From Pseudonocardia alni (GTDB taxonomy: Bacteria; Actinomycetota; Actinomycetes; Mycobacteriales; Pseudonocardiaceae), in the NCBI RefSeq assembly GCF_002813375.1, contig NZ_PHUJ01000003.1:248001-312000 (forward strand): a stretch of 64,000 nucleotides of DNA. The letters run 5' to 3'. The translations under genes and the position numbers were made by a program. The notes under the pieces are model-generated. The model did not search any database and had not been told where the DNA came from. It saw only the letters and a list, made by a program, of their open reading frames with translations. Shown piece after piece: positions 3,120 through 10,539 of the stretch. Numbering within the stretch: position 1 is the first letter of the stretch; the number at the start of each line of letters is the position of its first letter.

Positions 3120-4556
3120 TCACGATCGGGCAGACAGGACATCCCACACGACCTCGAGGTGCTCGCGGCCCGTGGTGACCCCGCCGAAGGCCACCCGCAC
3201 CAGCGGGTGCCCGTCGACCTCGGTGCCGGTGAGCAGCACCCGTCCGTCGGCGTTGGCGCGCTCCAGCAGCGCGGTGGTCGCGGCGTCTCCGGAGCGCGAG
3301 CGGAGGCAGACCAGGGACAGCACCGGCGCGCACGCCAGCTCCAGGTCGTCGTGCCCGCGGACCCGCTCGGCCAGCTCGGCGGCGAGGTCCACGTGGCCGC
3401 GCAGGTGCGACCGCAGCCCGGACAGCCCCTGGCCGTGGAGCACCGCCCACAGCTTCAGTGCCCGGAACCGGCGCCCGAGCGGGACCTGCCAGTCCCGGAA
3501 GTCCACGACGGCGCCGGTGTCGGAGTGCGCGTCGCGCAGGTAGGCCGGGGTGATCGACAGCGCGGCCGGCAGCGCGCGGGCGTCGCGCACCCAGAGCAGC
3601 GAGGCGTCGAACGCGGTGAGCAGCCACTTGTGGGCGTCGGTGCAGAAGGAGTCGACGCCGGGCCCGGGGCCCGGGTTCACGCCGTCGAGCACCCAGCGGT
3701 GCTCCGGGCAGAGCGCGGCGACGCCCGCCCACGCGGCGTCGACATGCACCCAGGCCCGGTACGGTCGCGCCGCCGTGACCAGCGCCGCGACCGGGTCGCT
3801 CGACCCGGTCGAGGTCGTCCCGACCGTCGCGCACACCAGGACCGGGACCAGCCCTGCGGCGACGTCCGCGGCCAGGGTGGCGGCCAGCGCGGCCGGGTCC
3901 ATCGCCCGGGAGCCCGGGGTGCACGGGACGGTCCGCAGCCCGTCCGCGCCGAGCCCGGCCACCCGCACCGCCTTGGCCAGCGACGAGTGCGTCTCGGCCG
4001 TGACGTAGACGCGTTCCCGGCCGGTCACCCCGCGCGCGCGCCAGCCGGAGTCCGGGTCCGGGGCGGCCCGGTGCAGCGCGGCGGTCAGCGCGACCAGCGC
4101 CGCCGAGGACGCCGAGTCCTGGATCGAGCCGCCCCCGCCGCCGTCGTGGGTGAACGTCTCGTCCAGCCCGAGCGCCCGGGCCACCTGGTCGGTGACCGCC
4201 TGCTCCACCTCGGTGCACGCGGGCGAGGTCGACCAGAGCATCCCCTGCGCCCCGGCGCCGCCGGAGAGCAGCTCACCCAGCAGCGAGGTCAGCGACGCGT
4301 TCGCCGGGAAGAACGCGTGGAACCCGGGGTGCTGCCAGCGGGTGTCGGCGTCACCGGTGACGGCCTCGACCAGCGACGGGAACGCCGCGAGCGGCTCGGG
4401 GTCCTCGTTCGCCTCGCGGGGGAAGCGGGCCCGCACGGTGCCGGGCTCGACGACGTCGCGGACCGGGTGACGTTCGATCCCGGCGCGGGCGTCGGCGACG
4501 GCGTCGACGAACAGGTGGCCGAGGGCTCGGAACTCGTCCGGGGTGAGGTCGGGCAC
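3120..4556 (-). CDS. PLP-dependent aromatic-L-amino-acid decarboxylase family protein
   Basis: A 478-residue group II decarboxylase. Features in order: WQHPGFHAFFPAN (about 73-85), GMLWSTSPACTEVE (about 105-118), GGGGSIQDSASSA (about 139-151), HVDAAW with the PLP-ring Asp (about 271-276) and DAHKWLLT with the Schiff-base Lys at about 310. These are the hallmarks of tyrosine/DOPA/tryptophan decarboxylases (EC 4.1.1.28 type), which make aryl-ethylamines from aromatic amino acids. The GTG start at 4556 is chosen because the alignment to the family begins PDLTPDEFRALGH; the frame stays open far upstream but the code there is the shadow of the next gene. It is separated from the metallochaperone by only 11 bp and may be co-transcribed with it. 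It is not of the DesA (lysine decarboxylase) type. Confidence 0.85.
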   Translation of the reverse strand: MPDLTPDEFRALGHLFVDAVADARAGIERHPVRDVVEPGTVRARFPREANEDPEPLAAFPSLVEAVTGDADTRWQHPGFHAFFPANASLTSLLGELLSGGAGAQGMLWSTSPACTEVEQAVTDQVARALGLDETFTHDGGGGGSIQDSASSAALVALTAALHRAAPDPDSGWRARGVTGRERVYVTAETHSSLAKAVRVAGLGADGLRTVPCTPGSRAMDPAALAATLAADVAAGLVPVLVCATVGTTSTGSSDPVAALVTAARPYRAWVHVDAAWAGVAALCPEHRWVLDGVNPGPGPGVDSFCTDAHKWLLTAFDASLLWVRDARALPAALSITPAYLRDAHSDTGAVVDFRDWQVPLGRRFRALKLWAVLHGQGLSGLRSHLRGHVDLAAELAERVRGHDDLELACAPVLSLVCLRSRSGDAATTALLERANADGRVLLTGTEVDGHPLVRVAFGGVTTGREHLEVVWDVLSARS

Positions 4557-4567
4557 GTGCCCGGACG

Positions 4568-5725
4568 CTACCCGGCCACGGGCGTGTGCTCGTGGATCCC
4601 GTGGTCGTGCAGGTCGTCGAGGTCCCAGGTGGGCAGCGGGTCGTCCAGGTCGCGCCAGGAGCCGGGCCCGGCGAGCAGCTCGTCGTCGGTGAGCAGGGCC
4701 GGGTCGAGGCGCGCGGTGACGGCCGCGCGGGTCAGGCCGAGCCCGATGAACACGATCTCCTGCCCGCGCGGCCCGTCGAACGACGACCACGGCGCCGCCG
4801 GATCCAGGGCCATGTTCGGGCCGGCCTGCGACCACAGGCCGGCGACGTCGGGCCGGGTCGCCAGCCAGCAGAAGCCCTTGCTGCGCAGCAGTCCGGGCCA
4901 CTCGGCGAGCGCGTCGAGCAGCCGGGCGGGGTGGAAGGGGCGTCCGGCCCGCCAGGTCACGCTGGCGATCCCGTACTCCTCGGTCTCGGGGGTGTGGCTG
5001 CCGTTGAGCTCCTGCGCCCAGCCGGGTGTCGCGGACGCCGCCGCCGGGTCGTAGCGGTGGGTGTCGAGCAGCTCGGCGACCGGCACGTCGCCACGCACCG
5101 CGCGGACGCGGCGTGCGCCCGGGTTCATCCGCGACAGCAGCGCCTCGATCCGGCCCAGCGCGTGCGGCGCGACGAGGTCGGTCTTGTTGAGCACCAGCAG
5201 GTCCGCGAACTCGACCTGGTCGGCGAGCAGGTCCGACAGGGTCCGCTCGTCGCCCTCGGCGGCCTGCAGCTCGCGGTCGGCGAGCGAGTCCTCGCTGGTC
5301 AGGAGCGTCTCGAAGGTCGAGGCGTCGACGAGGGTGACCATCGTGTCCAGCCGCGCGACGTCGGAGAGCGCGGTGCCGTCGTCGAAGGTCCACTCGAACG
5401 TCGCCGCGACCGGCATCGGCTCGGAGATCCCGGTCGACTCGACGACGACGTGGTCGTAGCGCCCCTCCGCGGCGAGCTCGCCGACCGTGGTCAGCAGGTC
5501 CTCGCGCAGCGTGCAGCAGATGCAGCCGTTGGTGAGCTCGACCAGCTTCTCCTGGCTGCGGTGCAGGTCGACCAGCGCGCCGTCGATGTTGACCTCGCTC
5601 ATGTCGTTGACGACGACGGCGATCCGCCTGCCGTCGCGGTTCGCGAGCAGGTGCTCCAGCAGCGTCGTCTTCCCCGCGCCGAGGAAGCCGGACAGGATCG
5701 TGACGGGAACGCGACGGTCGGCCAT
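4568..5725 (-). CDS. COG0523 GTPase metallochaperone (CobW/ZigA-like, probable zinc)
   Basis: A 385-residue G3E GTPase. It has a P-loop (GFLGAGKTT, residues 13-21), the diagnostic metal-binding GCICC motif (67-71), ESTGISEP (switch/Walker B region), an NKTD guanine-specificity motif near residue 175, a CobW C-terminal domain, and a His-rich end (DDLHDHGIHEH). Members with this form deliver Zn or Co to client proteins and are often induced by Zur under zinc limitation. The ATG at 5725 is followed directly by the conserved VTILSGFLGAGKTT. A possible Zur box lies 9-21 bp upstream. Divergent from the Trp leader and trpS; the decarboxylase follows 11 bp downstream. The metal is inferred from motif type and context. 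Confidence 0.85.
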   Translation of the reverse strand: MADRRVPVTILSGFLGAGKTTLLEHLLANRDGRRIAVVVNDMSEVNIDGALVDLHRSQEKLVELTNGCICCTLREDLLTTVGELAAEGRYDHVVVESTGISEPMPVAATFEWTFDDGTALSDVARLDTMVTLVDASTFETLLTSEDSLADRELQAAEGDERTLSDLLADQVEFADLLVLNKTDLVAPHALGRIEALLSRMNPGARRVRAVRGDVPVAELLDTHRYDPAAASATPGWAQELNGSHTPETEEYGIASVTWRAGRPFHPARLLDALAEWPGLLRSKGFCWLATRPDVAGLWSQAGPNMALDPAAPWSSFDGPRGQEIVFIGLGLTRAAVTARLDPALLTDDELLAGPGSWRDLDDPLPTWDLDDLHDHGIHEHTPVAG

Positions 5726-5733
5726 AGATTCAC

Positions 5734-5746
5734 GATAACCATTGTC
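5734..5746. promoter_or_regulatory. Possible Zur (zinc uptake regulator) box between the metallochaperone and the Trp leader
   Basis: GATAACCATTGTC is an imperfect 13-bp dyad that differs at two positions from a GATAAT-C-ATTATC type Zur core. It sits 9-21 bp upstream of the COG0523 start codon and about 26 bp upstream of the leader-peptide start on the other strand, in an AT-richer patch. Zur control of COG0523 genes is well known; whether this site is real needs a motif scan or binding test. Confidence 0.4.
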
Positions 5747-5771
5747 GATAATCGCGGTGAAGGGTGCCCCC

Positions 5772-5822
5772 GTGCGCACCTCCCGTCCGGTCTGGTGGCG
5801 GCTGCTCCCCGCAGCCGCGTAG
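5772..5822 (+). CDS. Trp leader peptide of the trpS attenuator (16 aa, tandem Trp)
   Basis: A 16-codon ORF (GTG start, TAG stop) reading MRTSRPVWWRLLPAAA with two adjacent TGG codons at 5793-5798. A strong Shine-Dalgarno (GAAGGG, 5759-5764) lies 7 bases before the GTG. It is followed by two mutually exclusive hairpins and then trpS. A ribosome stalled on the Trp codons would cover the 5' arm of the first hairpin. This is the classic arrangement of a ribosome-mediated attenuator. It is far below the size normally annotated. The reading is direct; function is inferred. Confidence 0.85.
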   Translation: MRTSRPVWWRLLPAAA

Positions 5823-5861
5823 ACGCACGTCACCGTCATCCCGGGCTGCCGAGCAGCCCGG
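5798..5861 (+). promoter_or_regulatory. Tryptophan-responsive transcription attenuator upstream of trpS
   Basis: Four segments can be read. Segment 1 (5798-5805, GCGGCTGC) pairs perfectly with segment 2 (5811-5818, GCAGCCGC). Segment 3 (5841-5848, CCGGGCTG) pairs perfectly with segment 4 (5854-5861, CAGCCCGG) as the terminator-like stem. Segment 2 can instead pair with segment 3 through GCAGCC (5811-5816) and GGCTGC (5844-5849), giving an antiterminator. The Trp codons end exactly at segment 1, so stalling would free segment 2. There is no U-tract after the 3:4 stem, which is common in actinomycetes. An auxiliary, indolmycin-resistant TrpRS gene in Streptomyces coelicolor is known to be regulated in this way. 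Confidence 0.8.
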
Positions 5862-5908
5862 CGGCAACCGGTGTGTCTCGTGCAGCTCCCCGTTCCCAGG
5901 AGCTGATC

Positions 5909-7006
5909 ATGGATTCCCTCGCCGCCACCGCCACCGTCGCCCGGATGCCCGCGCTGCGTGCCGCCGTCGCCCGGATGCCCGCGCTGCGTGCCGCCGTCGC
6001 CGCCGACCCGTCGTCGCACCGGGTGCTGACCGGGGAGCGGCCGACCGGCCCTCTGCACCTCGGGCACCTGGTGGGCAGGATCTCCGAACGCGTCCGGCTG
6101 CAACGGTCCGGAGTGGACGTGCTGGTGATCCTCGCCGACTACCAGGTGATCACCGACCGTGACGTCGCCGACCGGCTGTCGGACCACGTCCGCGACGCGG
6201 TGCTCGACCAGCTCGCCGCCGGGCTCGACCCGGACCGCACGACGGTGTTCGCCCACTCCGCGGTGCCCGCGCTGAACCAGCTCATGCTGCCGTTCCTGTC
6301 GCTGGTCACCGAGGCCGAGCTGCACCGCAACCCGACGGTGAAGGCCGAGCACGCCGCGTCCGGACGGGCGTTGTCGGGGCTGCTGCTGACCTATCCGGTG
6401 CACCAGGCCGCGGACATCCTGTCCTGCCGCGCCGACCTCGTGCCGGTGGGCAAGGACCAGCTCCCGCACATCGAGCTCACCCGGGCGCTGGCCCGGCGCT
6501 TCGCCGAGCGCTACGGCCCGGTGTTCACCCCGCCCGAGCCGATGCTGACCGACACCCCGGAGCTGCCGGGGCTCGACGGGCACACGATGTCCACGTCCCG
6601 CGGCAACGCCGTCCCGCTCGGCGCGACCGCGGACGAGACCGCGGCGCTCGTGCGCCGCGCCCGCACCGACCCCGAGCGGCGCATCACCGTCGACCCGGAC
6701 GGCAGGCCCGGGGTGTACGGGCTGCTCACGACCGCGGCCCTGTGCCTGGGCCGCGACCCGCACGAGCTGGCCGCGACCCTGGACGGGGCCGCCGCGCTGA
6801 AACGGCTCACCACCGACGCGGTCAACGACCACCTCGCCGGACACCGCGCGCGGCGCGCCGAGCTGGCCCGCGACCCCGGGCTCGTCGACGACGTGCTGGC
6901 CCGCGGCAACTCCCGCGCGAACGACCTGGCCGACGAGACACTCGACGCGGTCCGCGCGGCCATGGGGATGCGCTACGGGCGGGTCAGGACGCGGTCCGCC
7001 GGGTGA
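5909..7006 (+). CDS. trpS: Tryptophanyl-tRNA synthetase, auxiliary (TrpRS1-like) type
   Basis: A 365-residue class I synthetase that charges tRNA-Trp. The HIGH motif is PLHLGH (residues 48-53). The KMSKS loop reads TMSTS (226-230), so both lysines are replaced, an unusual state. VLTGERPTGPLHLGHLVG, ADYQVITDRD, TYPVHQAADIL and PVGKDQLPH are characteristic of the second actinomycete TrpRS type, whose Streptomyces member is indolmycin-resistant. The ATG at 5909 is preceded by AGGAG. A perfect 30-bp in-frame duplication near the N-terminus repeats RMPALRAAVA (residues 12-31). Expression is probably controlled by the attenuator upstream. Its end overlaps the convergent MOSC gene by 23 bp. A housekeeping TrpRS is likely elsewhere. 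Confidence 0.9.
   Translation: MDSLAATATVARMPALRAAVARMPALRAAVAADPSSHRVLTGERPTGPLHLGHLVGRISERVRLQRSGVDVLVILADYQVITDRDVADRLSDHVRDAVLDQLAAGLDPDRTTVFAHSAVPALNQLMLPFLSLVTEAELHRNPTVKAEHAASGRALSGLLLTYPVHQAADILSCRADLVPVGKDQLPHIELTRALARRFAERYGPVFTPPEPMLTDTPELPGLDGHTMSTSRGNAVPLGATADETAALVRRARTDPERRITVDPDGRPGVYGLLTTAALCLGRDPHELAATLDGAAALKRLTTDAVNDHLAGHRARRAELARDPGLVDDVLARGNSRANDLADETLDAVRAAMGMRYGRVRTRSAG
5941..6000 (+). repeat. Perfect 30-bp tandem duplication inside trpS
   Basis: Bases 5941-5970 and 5971-6000 are identical, 30 bp each, and encode RMPALRAAVA twice in the N-terminal extension before the catalytic core. Perfect identity at the DNA level suggests a recent duplication by slippage or recombination; it keeps the frame. 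Confidence 0.95.
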
Positions 7007-7670: not shown

Positions 7671-9182
7671 TCACACGGACCCGTGGAGACGGCGCAGCTC
7701 GGTCTTGAGCACCTTGCCCGACGGGTTGCGCGGTAACACCTCCACCAGCGCGAGCCGGCTCGGCTGCTTGTAGCGGGCCAGCCGGTCGGCGCACCACGCG
7801 GTGAGCGTGTCCAGGTCCGGCGGGGCGGCGGGGTCGGCGGGCACGACCACGGCGAGCGGGGTCTCGCCCCAGCGCGGGTCCGGCACCCCGACGACCGCGA
7901 CGTCGGCGACGCCCGGGTGCGCGGCCAGCACCTCCTCGACCTCGGCGCTGTATACGTTCTCCCCACCGGAGATGATCATGTCCTTGGCGCGGTCGACGAC
8001 GTAGTAGAAGCCGTCCGGGTCCTCGCGCACCAGGTCACCGGAGTGGAACCAGCCGCCGCGGAACGCCTCGGCCGTCGCCTCCGGGCGGCCCCAGTACTCC
8101 CGCATCACGGTCGGACCGCGGTAGACGATCTCGCCGACCTCGCCGCGCGGCACATCGTTCATGTCCGCGTCGACGACCCGCACCTCGACGCCGACCATCG
8201 GCGTCCCCACGGAACCGATCTTGCGCACCGAGTCCTCGCCCCGCAGCGCGCAGGTGACCGGGCTGCACTCGGTCTGCCCGAACGCGGTGACCACCATGGC
8301 CTGCGGGAACGTGTCGATCATGGTGCGGATCAGCGTCGTCGACGCGGGGGCGGCCCCCCAGGTGATCCGGCGCAGCGCCGACAGGTCCCGCTGCGCGATG
8401 CCGGGCACGGCGCAGATCGCCTGCCACTGCGCCGGGACGAAGAAGCACGACGACACGCGCTCCCGCTCCAGGGTGTCGACCGTCGCGACCGGGTCGAAGC
8501 CGCCCGACGGCGGGATGATCACCCGGCCGCCCGCGATCAGGGTCGGGAGCATCCCGGACAGCCCGGCGATGTGGAAGAGCGGAGCCCCGGACAGCGAGAC
8601 CCGGTCGTCGCCCGCGGTGCCCAGGTGCGTGATCGACAGGAACGCGTGCAGCATCAGGTTGCGGTGGGTCAGCACCGCGCCCTTCGGGCGGCCGGTCGTC
8701 CCCGAGGTGTACATGATGTAGGCGGGCTCGTCGTCGGCGACGTCGTCGCCCCAGTCGCCGGGGTCGGTCCCGGCGAGCAGCGCGCCGAACCCCTCGCCGA
8801 GGGTGAGTACCGTCCGCACCGACGGTGCCTGCTCCCGCGCGGTCCCCACGGTCGCGGCGAACCCGTCGTCGCAGAGCACGGCGGTGGGGGTGCAGTCGGT
8901 GAGCTGGAAGGCGACCTCGCCCGCGGTCAGCCGGAAGTTCAGCGGCACGCAGATCGCGCCGCGGCGCAGCACCGCCAGGTAGCTCTCGACGAGCTCGACG
9001 GAGTTGAGCCCGAGCACCGCGACCCGGTCCCCCCGGTCGACCCCCCGGTCGGCGAGCACGGTCGCCAGCCGGGACACCCGGTCGTCGAGCTGCGCCCAGG
9101 TCCGCGACGTCCGCGGGTCGGCCAGCGCCGGCCCGTCCGGTGTGGTCCGTGCGTGCCGCGCGACGATGTCCGCCGCGGTCAT
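7671..9182 (-). CDS. AMP-forming acyl-CoA ligase (fatty-acid-CoA ligase, FadD-like)
   Basis: A 503-residue ANL-superfamily enzyme that activates a carboxylic acid to acyl-AMP and then acyl-CoA. Visible motifs: P-loop-like YTSGTTGRPKG (about 155-165), FGQTECSP, GGWFHSGDL, DRAKDMIISGGENVY (hinge and A8) and the C-terminal Lys in PSGKVLKTEL. Start choice: the ATG at 9182 gives MTAADIVARHA, the usual beginning of the family; an in-frame start at 9254 would add 24 residues unlike the family. The Shine-Dalgarno before 9182 is weak. Divergent from the MFS gene. The acyl substrate is unknown. Confidence 0.85.
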   Translation of the reverse strand: MTAADIVARHARTTPDGPALADPRTSRTWAQLDDRVSRLATVLADRGVDRGDRVAVLGLNSVELVESYLAVLRRGAICVPLNFRLTAGEVAFQLTDCTPTAVLCDDGFAATVGTAREQAPSVRTVLTLGEGFGALLAGTDPGDWGDDVADDEPAYIMYTSGTTGRPKGAVLTHRNLMLHAFLSITHLGTAGDDRVSLSGAPLFHIAGLSGMLPTLIAGGRVIIPPSGGFDPVATVDTLERERVSSCFFVPAQWQAICAVPGIAQRDLSALRRITWGAAPASTTLIRTMIDTFPQAMVVTAFGQTECSPVTCALRGEDSVRKIGSVGTPMVGVEVRVVDADMNDVPRGEVGEIVYRGPTVMREYWGRPEATAEAFRGGWFHSGDLVREDPDGFYYVVDRAKDMIISGGENVYSAEVEEVLAAHPGVADVAVVGVPDPRWGETPLAVVVPADPAAPPDLDTLTAWCADRLARYKQPSRLALVEVLPRNPSGKVLKTELRRLHGSV

Positions 9183-9297
9183 CCCGTGTCCCGTGATCGT
9201 GCCCACCGGTGGCCTCCCGAGCCTCGACTGCCCTGCCACTGTGGTCCCGATCACCCCGGTGGGGCAAGATCACGGGCCGCCGTGCAGGGTGACGCCG

Positions 9298-10539
9298 GTG
9301 AGCACGACCCCCGACGGCAGCGGTCCCGACGGAGCCGACCCCGACGGAGCCGACCCCGGCGGTGCCGTCCCCGACGGCACCCGGCGGCTCCGGCTGCTGC
9401 AGCTGGCGTCGCTGACCAGCACCGTCGACCGGTTCGCGATCGCGCCGCTGCTGGTCCCGATCGCCGCGTCGTTCTCGGCGCCGCTGGCCGCGGCGGCCGG
9501 CGCGGCCGGGGGCTACTTCCTCGCCTACGGCCTCATGCAGGTCGTGTGGGGGGTGCTGTCCGACCGGATCGGCCGGGTCCGGGTGATGCGCCTGGCCCTG
9601 GTCGGCGCGGTGCTGGGCGGGGTCGCCTCGGTGCTGGCCCCGACCCTCGCAGTGCTGGTCGTCGCCCGGGTCGTCACCGGCGCGTGCACGGCGGCGCTGA
9701 TCCCGGCGGCGCTGGTGTACGTCGGTGACACCTGGCCCGCCGCGGTCCGGCAGCGGCCCCTGTCGGACCTGCTCGCCGCGACCGCGCTCGGCACCGCCGT
9801 CGCCACGGCCGGGGCGGGCCTGCTGGCCGACCTGGCCGGGTGGCGCGTCGTCCTCGGTGCGACGGCGGCCGGCTGCGCGGTGCTGTTCGTCGCGCTGCGG
9901 GCGCTGCCCGAACCCGACGGTGCCCGCACCACCTCGCGCGGGATCGTCGACGCGGTGCTCCGCCCGCTGGCCGCGGTCGCCGGGAACGGCTGGGCGCGGC
10001 TGGTCCTGGCGCTCGCCTTCGTCGAGGGCGCCGTCGTGCTCGGGGTGCTGACCTACCTGGCCCCGTCGCTGCAGGCCGGGGGCAGCTCCGCCGCGCTGGC
10101 CGGGCTCGCCGCCGGGGGCTACGGCGTCGGCGCGGTGCTGTTCTCCCGGGTCGTGCGACGCCTGGTCGGGCGCCTGCGCCCCGCCGCGCTGGCCGCCGTC
10201 GGCGGCGGGTTCCTCGTGATCGCCTGGGTGTTCCCGCTGGTCGTCGTGCACCCGGCGACGGTCGCCGTGGCCGGGCTCTGCCTGGGTGGGGCGTGGGCGT
10301 TCCTGCACTCGACCCTGCAGACCTGGGCGACCGAGGTCGTCCCGCAGGCCCGCGCGACCGCCGTCGCGCTGTTCGCGACACTGCTGTTCCTGGGCAGCTC
10401 GGCCGGGACCACGCTGGGGGCCCCGCTCGCCGACGCCGGGCGCTTCGCCCCGCTGTTCGCCGCCGCCCTGGTGGCCTCGGTGCCGCTGGCGCTGGTCGCC
10501 GCGTGGACCCGGGCCCGCTACGCCCGCCGGGCCGCCTGA
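9298..10539 (+). CDS. MFS transporter
   Basis: A 413-residue 12-segment major facilitator. After an unusual Asp/Gly/Pro-rich cytoplasmic N-terminus made of near-repeats (DGADP), the membrane domain starts at LLQLASLTSTVDRFAIAPLL and carries the loop 2-3 signature GVLSDRIGRVRVMR. Start: a GTG at 9298 has CAGGG 8 bases upstream; a GTG at 9289 is also in frame. The family covers drug efflux and small-solute carriers; I cannot name the substrate. It is followed by a strong bidirectional hairpin terminator. Confidence 0.8.
   Translation: MSTTPDGSGPDGADPDGADPGGAVPDGTRRLRLLQLASLTSTVDRFAIAPLLVPIAASFSAPLAAAAGAAGGYFLAYGLMQVVWGVLSDRIGRVRVMRLALVGAVLGGVASVLAPTLAVLVVARVVTGACTAALIPAALVYVGDTWPAAVRQRPLSDLLAATALGTAVATAGAGLLADLAGWRVVLGATAAGCAVLFVALRALPEPDGARTTSRGIVDAVLRPLAAVAGNGWARLVLALAFVEGAVVLGVLTYLAPSLQAGGSSAALAGLAAGGYGVGAVLFSRVVRRLVGRLRPAALAAVGGGFLVIAWVFPLVVVHPATVAVAGLCLGGAWAFLHSTLQTWATEVVPQARATAVALFATLLFLGSSAGTTLGAPLADAGRFAPLFAAALVASVPLALVAAWTRARYARRAA

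Follow-up and report, generated by a model that had tools for sequence, protein, structure and literature searches.

How might a GC-rich actinobacterium match the expression of a spare tryptophanyl-tRNA synthetase (TrpRS) to its supply of charged tRNA-Trp when the leader of the gene carries Trp codons and competing hairpins and no U-tract? This question is raised by a locus of Pseudonocardia alni, analysed here within a stretch of 64,000 nucleotides (contig NZ_PHUJ01000003.1, positions 248,001 to 312,000), referred to as the window. An earlier note on this DNA had read a complete ribosome-mediated Trp attenuator before an auxiliary trpS gene. Attenuation of the auxiliary TrpRS1 of Streptomyces coelicolor is reportedly the subject of work by Vecchione and Sello. 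In the accessible part of a review, TrpRS1 is listed as indolmycin-resistant.

The auxiliary trpS gene and its neighbours

The genome to which the window belongs carries a divergent second TrpRS at C3:2461250-2462233, 37% identical to the window TrpRS, which marks the window gene as auxiliary. The window TrpRS falls into a clade that has Q in place of the H of the housekeeping copy (ADYQVIT vs VDLHAIT); of the 172 loci fetched, counting duplicates, 166 have DYQV at the place of DLHA in the housekeeping copy. The Q/H position may bear on indolmycin. Among solved structures, 1yi8 and 2a4m come closest; 2a4m bears the title tryptophanyl-tRNA synthetase II, and both are presumably Deinococcus proteins. 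Within trpS, a 30-bp tandem duplication (5936-5995) doubles VARMPALRAA at the N-terminus; the corresponding locus L003 has a single copy.

Divergent from the leader, and starting 46 nt away from it, lies a COG0523-type GTPase gene on the minus strand (4568-5725; best NCBIfam match ZigA, below cut-off), and by sequence the same divergent neighbour starts in L003, L004 and L006. Behind it follows a gene for a PLP-dependent decarboxylase (3123-4568, minus strand), whose NCBIfam matches to diaminobutyrate and other decarboxylases were below cut-off. The gap between the GTPase gene and the leader (5726-5771) contains an imperfect palindrome, CGATAACCATTGTCG, which we take to resemble a Zur box and which would fall at the trpS leader promoter. 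Further downstream, ARAGORN called a tRNA-Arg(tcg) at 9816-9905 inside an ORF (9004-10539), possibly a false call.

Leader ORF and putative transcription start

A 16-aa leader with tandem Trp codons directly before trpS, as the earlier note had described, was borne out (Table 1), and short leader ORFs with codons of the regulated amino acid were found both in the window and in its relatives. The leader is not part of trpS, since its own stop codon ends it.

Table 1. Features of the trpS leader region in the window (positions are those of the window)
Feature	Position	Strand	Remarks
Leader promoter region	5747..5765	+	GATAAT 5747-5752; AAGGGT 5760-5765 aligned with the -10 of relatives
Leader ORF VRTSRPVWWRLLPAAA	5772..5822	+	16 codons, GTG start; present in relatives
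P0, 5' strand, GUGCG at start codon	5772..5776	+	Pairs with 5824-5828; MFE without ribosome, covariation
Tandem TGG (Trp8, Trp9)	5793..5798	+	Second TGG in at least 90% of 39 aligned leaders
Segment A (1) GCGGCUGC	5798..5805	+	Overlaps last Trp codon; pairs with 5811-5818
Segment B (2) GCAGCCGC	5811..5818	+	Partner A or C
P0, 3' strand, CGCAC behind leader stop	5824..5828	+	Pairs with 5772-5776
Segment C (3) CCGGGCUGC	5841..5849	+	Partner B, D or E
C:D loop, CGA	5850..5852	+	Complementary to E in most relatives
Segment D (4) GCAGCCCGG	5853..5861	+	No U-tract behind; no terminator in scan
Segment E CGUGCAGCUC	5879..5888	+	5882-5888 pairs with C 5843-5849
E side of hairpin over trpS Shine-Dalgarno, CAGCUCC	5883..5889	+	Pairs with F
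F, GGAGCUG	5899..5905	+	trpS Shine-Dalgarno AGGAG = 5898-5902
trpS, auxiliary tryptophanyl-tRNA synthetase	5909..7006	+	365 aa; TIGR00233 217.9 bits, cut-off 176.75

The leaders of the relatives would normally be leaderless, because in 44 of 46 loci, several being near-identical, a TANNNT hexamer ends 6-7 nt before the in-frame leader start codon. The background for this spacing was 9 of 3012 other ATG/GTG codons around the same leaders (0.3%). Comparison of the sequences establishes the leader, its Trp codons and this -10 spacing of the relatives. The two exceptions to the spacing are the window itself (L001) and L013. The hexamer aligned with the -10 is TAGGCT in L003 and TAAGCT in L004, both near relatives, and AAGGGT in the window, and a scan for sigma-70 consensus promoters at the window leader found none. 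The putative Shine-Dalgarno sequence of the window leader overlaps this degenerate -10 place, and transcription starting from GATAAT would leave a short 5' UTR with GAAGGG before the GTG. For the species of the window, a leaderless start and a Shine-Dalgarno-led start of the leader are both possible. The 'good Shine-Dalgarno' of the earlier note was therefore not confirmed, the same place being a -10-like TANNNT in nearly all loci, and Shine-Dalgarno-led translation of the leader finds no support as a general rule, the relatives being leaderless as judged by their -10 spacing.

Pairing segments in the window

The four segments that had been proposed to pair 1:2, 2:3 and 3:4 (here A to D) can all do so in the window. 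The attenuator had been called complete; this holds for the leader and segments 1-4, but neither a U-tract nor a terminator was found, and a helix at the 5' end (P0), segment E and the hairpin E:F had been missed. The trpS Shine-Dalgarno lies within E:F, with 80% of its bases paired in the window. The region 5759-5911 (153 nt) folds with -72.1 kcal/mol, a z of -2.2 against dinucleotide shuffles (3 of 200 shuffles were as good), which is modest alone, so the argument rests on the relatives. No Rfam family matched the leader region at its gathering score, and on this ground a T-box or another known Rfam element was rejected.

Trp leaders among relatives and the link to a second TrpRS

Protein searches detected a relative of the window TrpRS in 14 of 62 genomes of the genus (E 1e-60), 42 of 396 of the phylum (1e-80) and 46 of 374 of the class (1e-95). 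A survey of named genomes covered the best 80 among 540 confirmed stretches. At 33 of these 80 loci a leader encodes WW or W-x-W and starts 6-7 nt behind a -10-like element; the other 47 have no leader by this rule. At the named loci, leaders occur in Pseudonocardia, Nocardia, Mycolicibacterium, Tsukamurella, Rhodococcus, Nocardioides, Microbacterium, Brevibacterium, Kocuria, Arthrobacter, Cryobacterium and others; other leader types occur in additional genomes. The rule-negative loci comprise Pseudoclavibacter L020, Nocardia L024 and L037, Luteimicrobium L090, and L055, the rest being from Bifidobacterium and its kin or from Coriobacteriia. Among the actinomycete loci, L020, L024 and L090 are without a leader, and L037 has one with a single Trp codon. 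Within the genus of the window, L012 and L014 encode a TrpRS about 59% identical to the window's and carry another leader type (VRSLSCLSWWPS and VRRFSCLSWWPS). The 8 bases that follow the hairpin include 4 and 3 T, respectively, and one genus thus has two leader types.

Fifty genomes, chosen from earlier matches together with three without a match, were scanned with TIGR00233. Our analysis revealed 28 genomes with a window-type TrpRS and another, 19 with a window-type enzyme alone and three with only another. A Trp leader with a -10 at 6-7 nt occurs in 25 of the 28 genomes with a second TrpRS vs none of the 19 without, an association on few independent lineages because 13 of the 28 belong to the genus of the window and 18 of the 19 come from three families. 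As for the remaining three of the 28, the window genome and G045 have a WW/WxW ORF without the -10, that of G045 without the rest of the attenuator layout, and G760 has none. Among the 19, G403 has a WW ORF without the -10, and G571 offered only 120 nt upstream. These counts suggest that the Trp leader goes with a spare TrpRS, and they support the earlier placement of such a leader before an auxiliary enzyme.

A covariance-model search of the 396 phylum genomes, insensitive because only 8 candidates were scored per genome, returned, apart from the window, two matches, both weak (E 4.8e-4 and 0.006), and the fetched loci contained no relative of trpS. A degenerate DNA pattern matched only the window's own genome among the 396.

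Conservation and covariation of the helices

The alignment comprised 39 leaders, among them L030 with W-R-W and L037 with one Trp codon. Excluded were L012, L014 and L042 for their U-tract or T-rich type, L013 because it lacks a leader with a -10, and L016, L017, L029 and L049 as duplicates or near duplicates. The proportion of paired cells was 99.1% for A:B, 97.8% for C:D and 78.2% for P0, and the mutually exclusive helices B:C and C:D are possible in all 39 leaders, A:B in 38. The leader ORF and the stems put forward in the earlier note are conserved in these relatives.

Over P0, A:B and C:D, 31 cells were changed on both sides vs 14 in shuffles, and 7 pairs showed both-sided changes vs 4.9; the number of further pair types was unexceptional (20 vs 18.3, with 75 of 500 shuffles reaching 20). 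Both-sided changes lie mostly in P0 and the outer C:D pair, and A:B is nearly invariant. Since some genera have P0 in another register, each leader's own strands were compared with foreign ones by duplex energy. The own strand exceeded the typical (median) foreign strand in 34 of 39 leaders for P0, 30 for C:E, 29 for E:F and 28 for C:D, with no signal for A:B (16) and B:C (24); control strands not expected to pair reached 22 (B with F) and 25 (P0b with E), so that the values for C:D, E:F and C:E are modest and only P0 stands out.

C:E is paired in 97.9% of cells over ten pairs, the C:D loop included, and 9 cells are changed on both sides vs 2.4 in shuffles, mostly in one pair; most of the variation on the E side is G-U wobble. 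Both-sided changes fall in only two C:E pairs, against 1.2 in shuffles, and 139 of 500 shuffles do as well; when the partner is shifted by +2, as many as 10 cells are changed on both sides, but with 50% paired. As judged from the alignment, P0, C:D and C:E vary in paired fashion, and these helices, like A:B, are established by the comparison. The compensatory changes named as a check of the stems were found in P0, C:D and C:E, but A:B and B:C are nearly invariant and for this reason draw no support from covariation.

Two groups of leaders differing in the U-tract

Behind the 3:4 hairpin of the window, the tail is CGGCAACC, without a T in 8 bases, and a terminator scan at the window leader found none; a standard intrinsic terminator is unsupported here. 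Hairpins and tails were scored in 75 leaders, 70 of which were kept (L038 and L043 had no hairpin by the rule applied; in L082, L171 and L175 the stretch was too short). Except for L001 this set was selected on the -10, and it therefore gives no evidence for that element. Fewer than four T in the 8 bases behind D were counted in 58 of the 70 leaders, the window included. The 12 with at least four are nine CxxWWR-type leaders together with L012 (Pseudonocardia), L042 (Glutamicibacter) and L156. Of ten CxxWWR-type leaders, whose genomes we read as Streptomyces-like, nine share the layout and add a U-tract behind D; the tenth, L133, has 3 T. The group of VKSLVLVWWLPS and kin arrives at the layout in other letters (GGCCGCC vs GGUGGCC). 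Three U-tract leaders (L112, L132, L135) carry near the trpS start a second C-like copy, GGGCCGTCC, that would pair with D and is unlike the E of other leaders.

Predicted folding with and without a stalled ribosome

At equilibrium, in 44 leaders, about 0.8 of the trpS Shine-Dalgarno bases were paired on average at any ribosome position, and a ribosome mask produced no general change there; a change did occur in five Pseudonocardia rows (L005, L009, L011, L016, L017), which are near relatives or duplicates. With a ribosome on the first Trp codon, C:D was kept in 6 of 8 sequences (B:C formed in L031 and C:E in L035), and a switch must therefore be kinetic.

We simulated base-pair-level kinetic folding during transcription, with the ribosome as a mask, five runs per state and rates uncalibrated to seconds, for 36 of the 39 aligned leaders (L032 and L037 had no record with the trpS start, and in L043 the start was mis-assigned). 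Simulated C:D ended at 0.81 when the ribosome stood on the stop codon and at 0.23 when it was stalled on Trp with the 5' end held, being lower on the stall in 30 of 36 sequences and higher in 3 (p 3e-6); for the window the values were 0.97 and 0.33. Masking the 5' end is an assumption, and the outcome differs strongly from that of runs with the end free, in which the stall left C:D at 0.52 on average and 0.78 in the window, and C:E at 0.16. An initial simulation without the 5'-end mask formed B:C in a minority only, because P0 excludes B:C when pseudoknots are disallowed. The simulation supports the classical decision between B:C and C:D.

Proposed mechanism and alternatives

Based on these results, the leader is very probably an attenuator, of a variant without a U-tract and with extra conserved helices. 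With less assurance, and still as the likelier course, we propose that it is a ribosome-mediated attenuator of the auxiliary trpS with the following steps, the response of expression being a prediction from sequence; stalling, folding order and the level of control are what we infer. A ribosome that normally starts right at the 5' end of a leaderless transcript would translate the leader. When charged tRNA-Trp is ample, it would reach the stop codon and cover B, whereupon C would pair with D, the 'off' signal. When charged tRNA-Trp is scarce, it would stall on the tandem TGG, covering A and leaving B free to pair with C before D is made; C:D would not form and trpS would be expressed. As no U-tract lies behind C:D, this hairpin most likely needs help (Rho, NusG, another factor or a pause) to end or block expression, or alternatively it would feed a second layer at the trpS Shine-Dalgarno in E:F, where C can capture the E strand. 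The three actinomycete loci without a leader, the single Trp codon of L037, the missing U-tract, the lack of an own-strand signal in A:B and B:C, the retention of C:D at equilibrium and the 5'-end hold required in the simulation count against this proposal. The ribosome-mediated Trp sensing of the earlier note is supported by the link to a second TrpRS and by the paired helices; a Shine-Dalgarno-led start as the general rule and a standard terminator are not supported.

The second layer could itself be the main output, by translational attenuation through a toehold relay, which we regard as rather unlikely. On a stall, B would hold C and keep D off; the later-made E would land on the C:D-loop bases, displace B and pair with C, leaving the Shine-Dalgarno in F free. 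With ample Trp, C:D would close and E would cover the Shine-Dalgarno. The C:E conservation described above, loop included, favours such a relay, as does the complementarity of C plus loop to the region between D and the Shine-Dalgarno, which exceeds that to shuffled versions (p up to 0.05) in 47 of 58 leaders without a T-run vs 4 of 12 with one (p 0.002 by Fisher's test, 0.049 when each peptide is counted once). The window itself lies outside the 47, its match alone not being significant (p 0.09). Simulated C:E also rose to 0.33 on the stall vs 0.07 at the stop codon (up in 19 of 36, down in 3; p 0.0003) and fell to 0.00 when loop-to-E pairs were forbidden, which makes a role of the loop-to-E complementarity possible in the model. 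However, simulated Shine-Dalgarno access was 0.43 stalled vs 0.41 at the stop codon (higher on the stall in 13 and lower in 12 of 36 sequences; p 0.83), and in the window C:E was 0 and access 0.20 in both ribosome states. Forced C:E opened the Shine-Dalgarno only partly in the 36 sequences, read row by row (0.20 to 0.41 in the window), and its coverage was alike in leaders with and without a U-tract (0.79 vs 0.82, one row per peptide). The small number of both-sided C:E pairs and the result of the +2 slide weigh on the same side. Over equilibrium and kinetic folding, stalling brought no general change in Shine-Dalgarno release and none in the window, and release as the output has no support from simulation. 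A wider form of the relay is equally doubtful: a class of six segments (A-F) plus the 5'-end helix, in which a ribosome stalled on a leaderless leader would steer the capture of C by one of three look-alike strands (B, D or E), with the loop as landing site of E, relaying starvation to the trpS start without a terminator in several actinobacterial families and in unrelated letters (GGCUGC and GGCCGCC types).

Less likely still is classical attenuation as in trp operons, with an intrinsic terminator that works without a U-tract. It shares the A-B-C-D logic, some relatives do have a U-tract, and the trpS leader of S. lividans, without a uridine-enriched sequence, is described in the accessible part of PMC8079986 as terminated by two hairpins. 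Against it, the window shows no terminator-like site and the T-less tail described above, and the conserved E would be left unexplained. That the short ORF and hairpins arose by chance in GC-rich DNA, to which the modest fold z might point, is highly improbable, being contradicted by conservation in many genera, by covariation and by the link to a second TrpRS.

Comparison with known systems

Published examples exist of Trp attenuators before trpS and of leaderless leaders. An attenuator was predicted before trpS2 of S. avermitilis (Seliverstov 2005, PMC1262725), and as far as the accessible part of that paper goes it resembles the window in preceding an extra TrpRS and in its induction logic. 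The same part calls trpS attenuators classical; compared by description, the window differs in having no U-tract and in adding P0, E and the Shine-Dalgarno hairpin. The trp-operon attenuators of Corynebacterium and Streptomyces treated there share repeated UGG codons and competing hairpins with the window, but they precede a biosynthetic operon and have GC-rich terminators with poly-U tracts, whereas the window leader precedes trpS and has no U-tract. In a reannotation of S. lividans TK24, leaderless leaders include TrpL2 before trpS, which in the accessible part of the paper (PMC8079986) has hairpins and no uridine-enriched sequence, like window-type leaders; it has one Trp codon (MMTRTCTQLWRAA), in contrast to the tandem Trp of the window. 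Leaderless polycysteine short ORFs of mycobacteria (Canestrari 2020, in the accessible part of a review, PMC9031893) likewise sense an amino acid by ribosome speed, although they respond to cysteine and precede other genes, and the likeness concerns the ORFs, not structures.

A literature search joining tryptophanyl-tRNA synthetase, attenuator and Pseudonocardia, with most subscription papers beyond its reach, returned no paper. The remark that such control had not been described in this lineage agrees with this result for Pseudonocardia, but the kind itself has been described for Streptomyces.

Trp leaders before spare TrpRS genes thus occur in many Actinomycete genera, are normally leaderless as judged from their promoters, and in many cases lack a U-tract terminator. 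Leaders with and without a U-tract on homologous genes offer a natural comparison for the ways in which GC-rich actinobacteria may attenuate without U-tracts. If they work as proposed, these leaders may also account for an inducible tolerance of the bacteria to TrpRS inhibitors.
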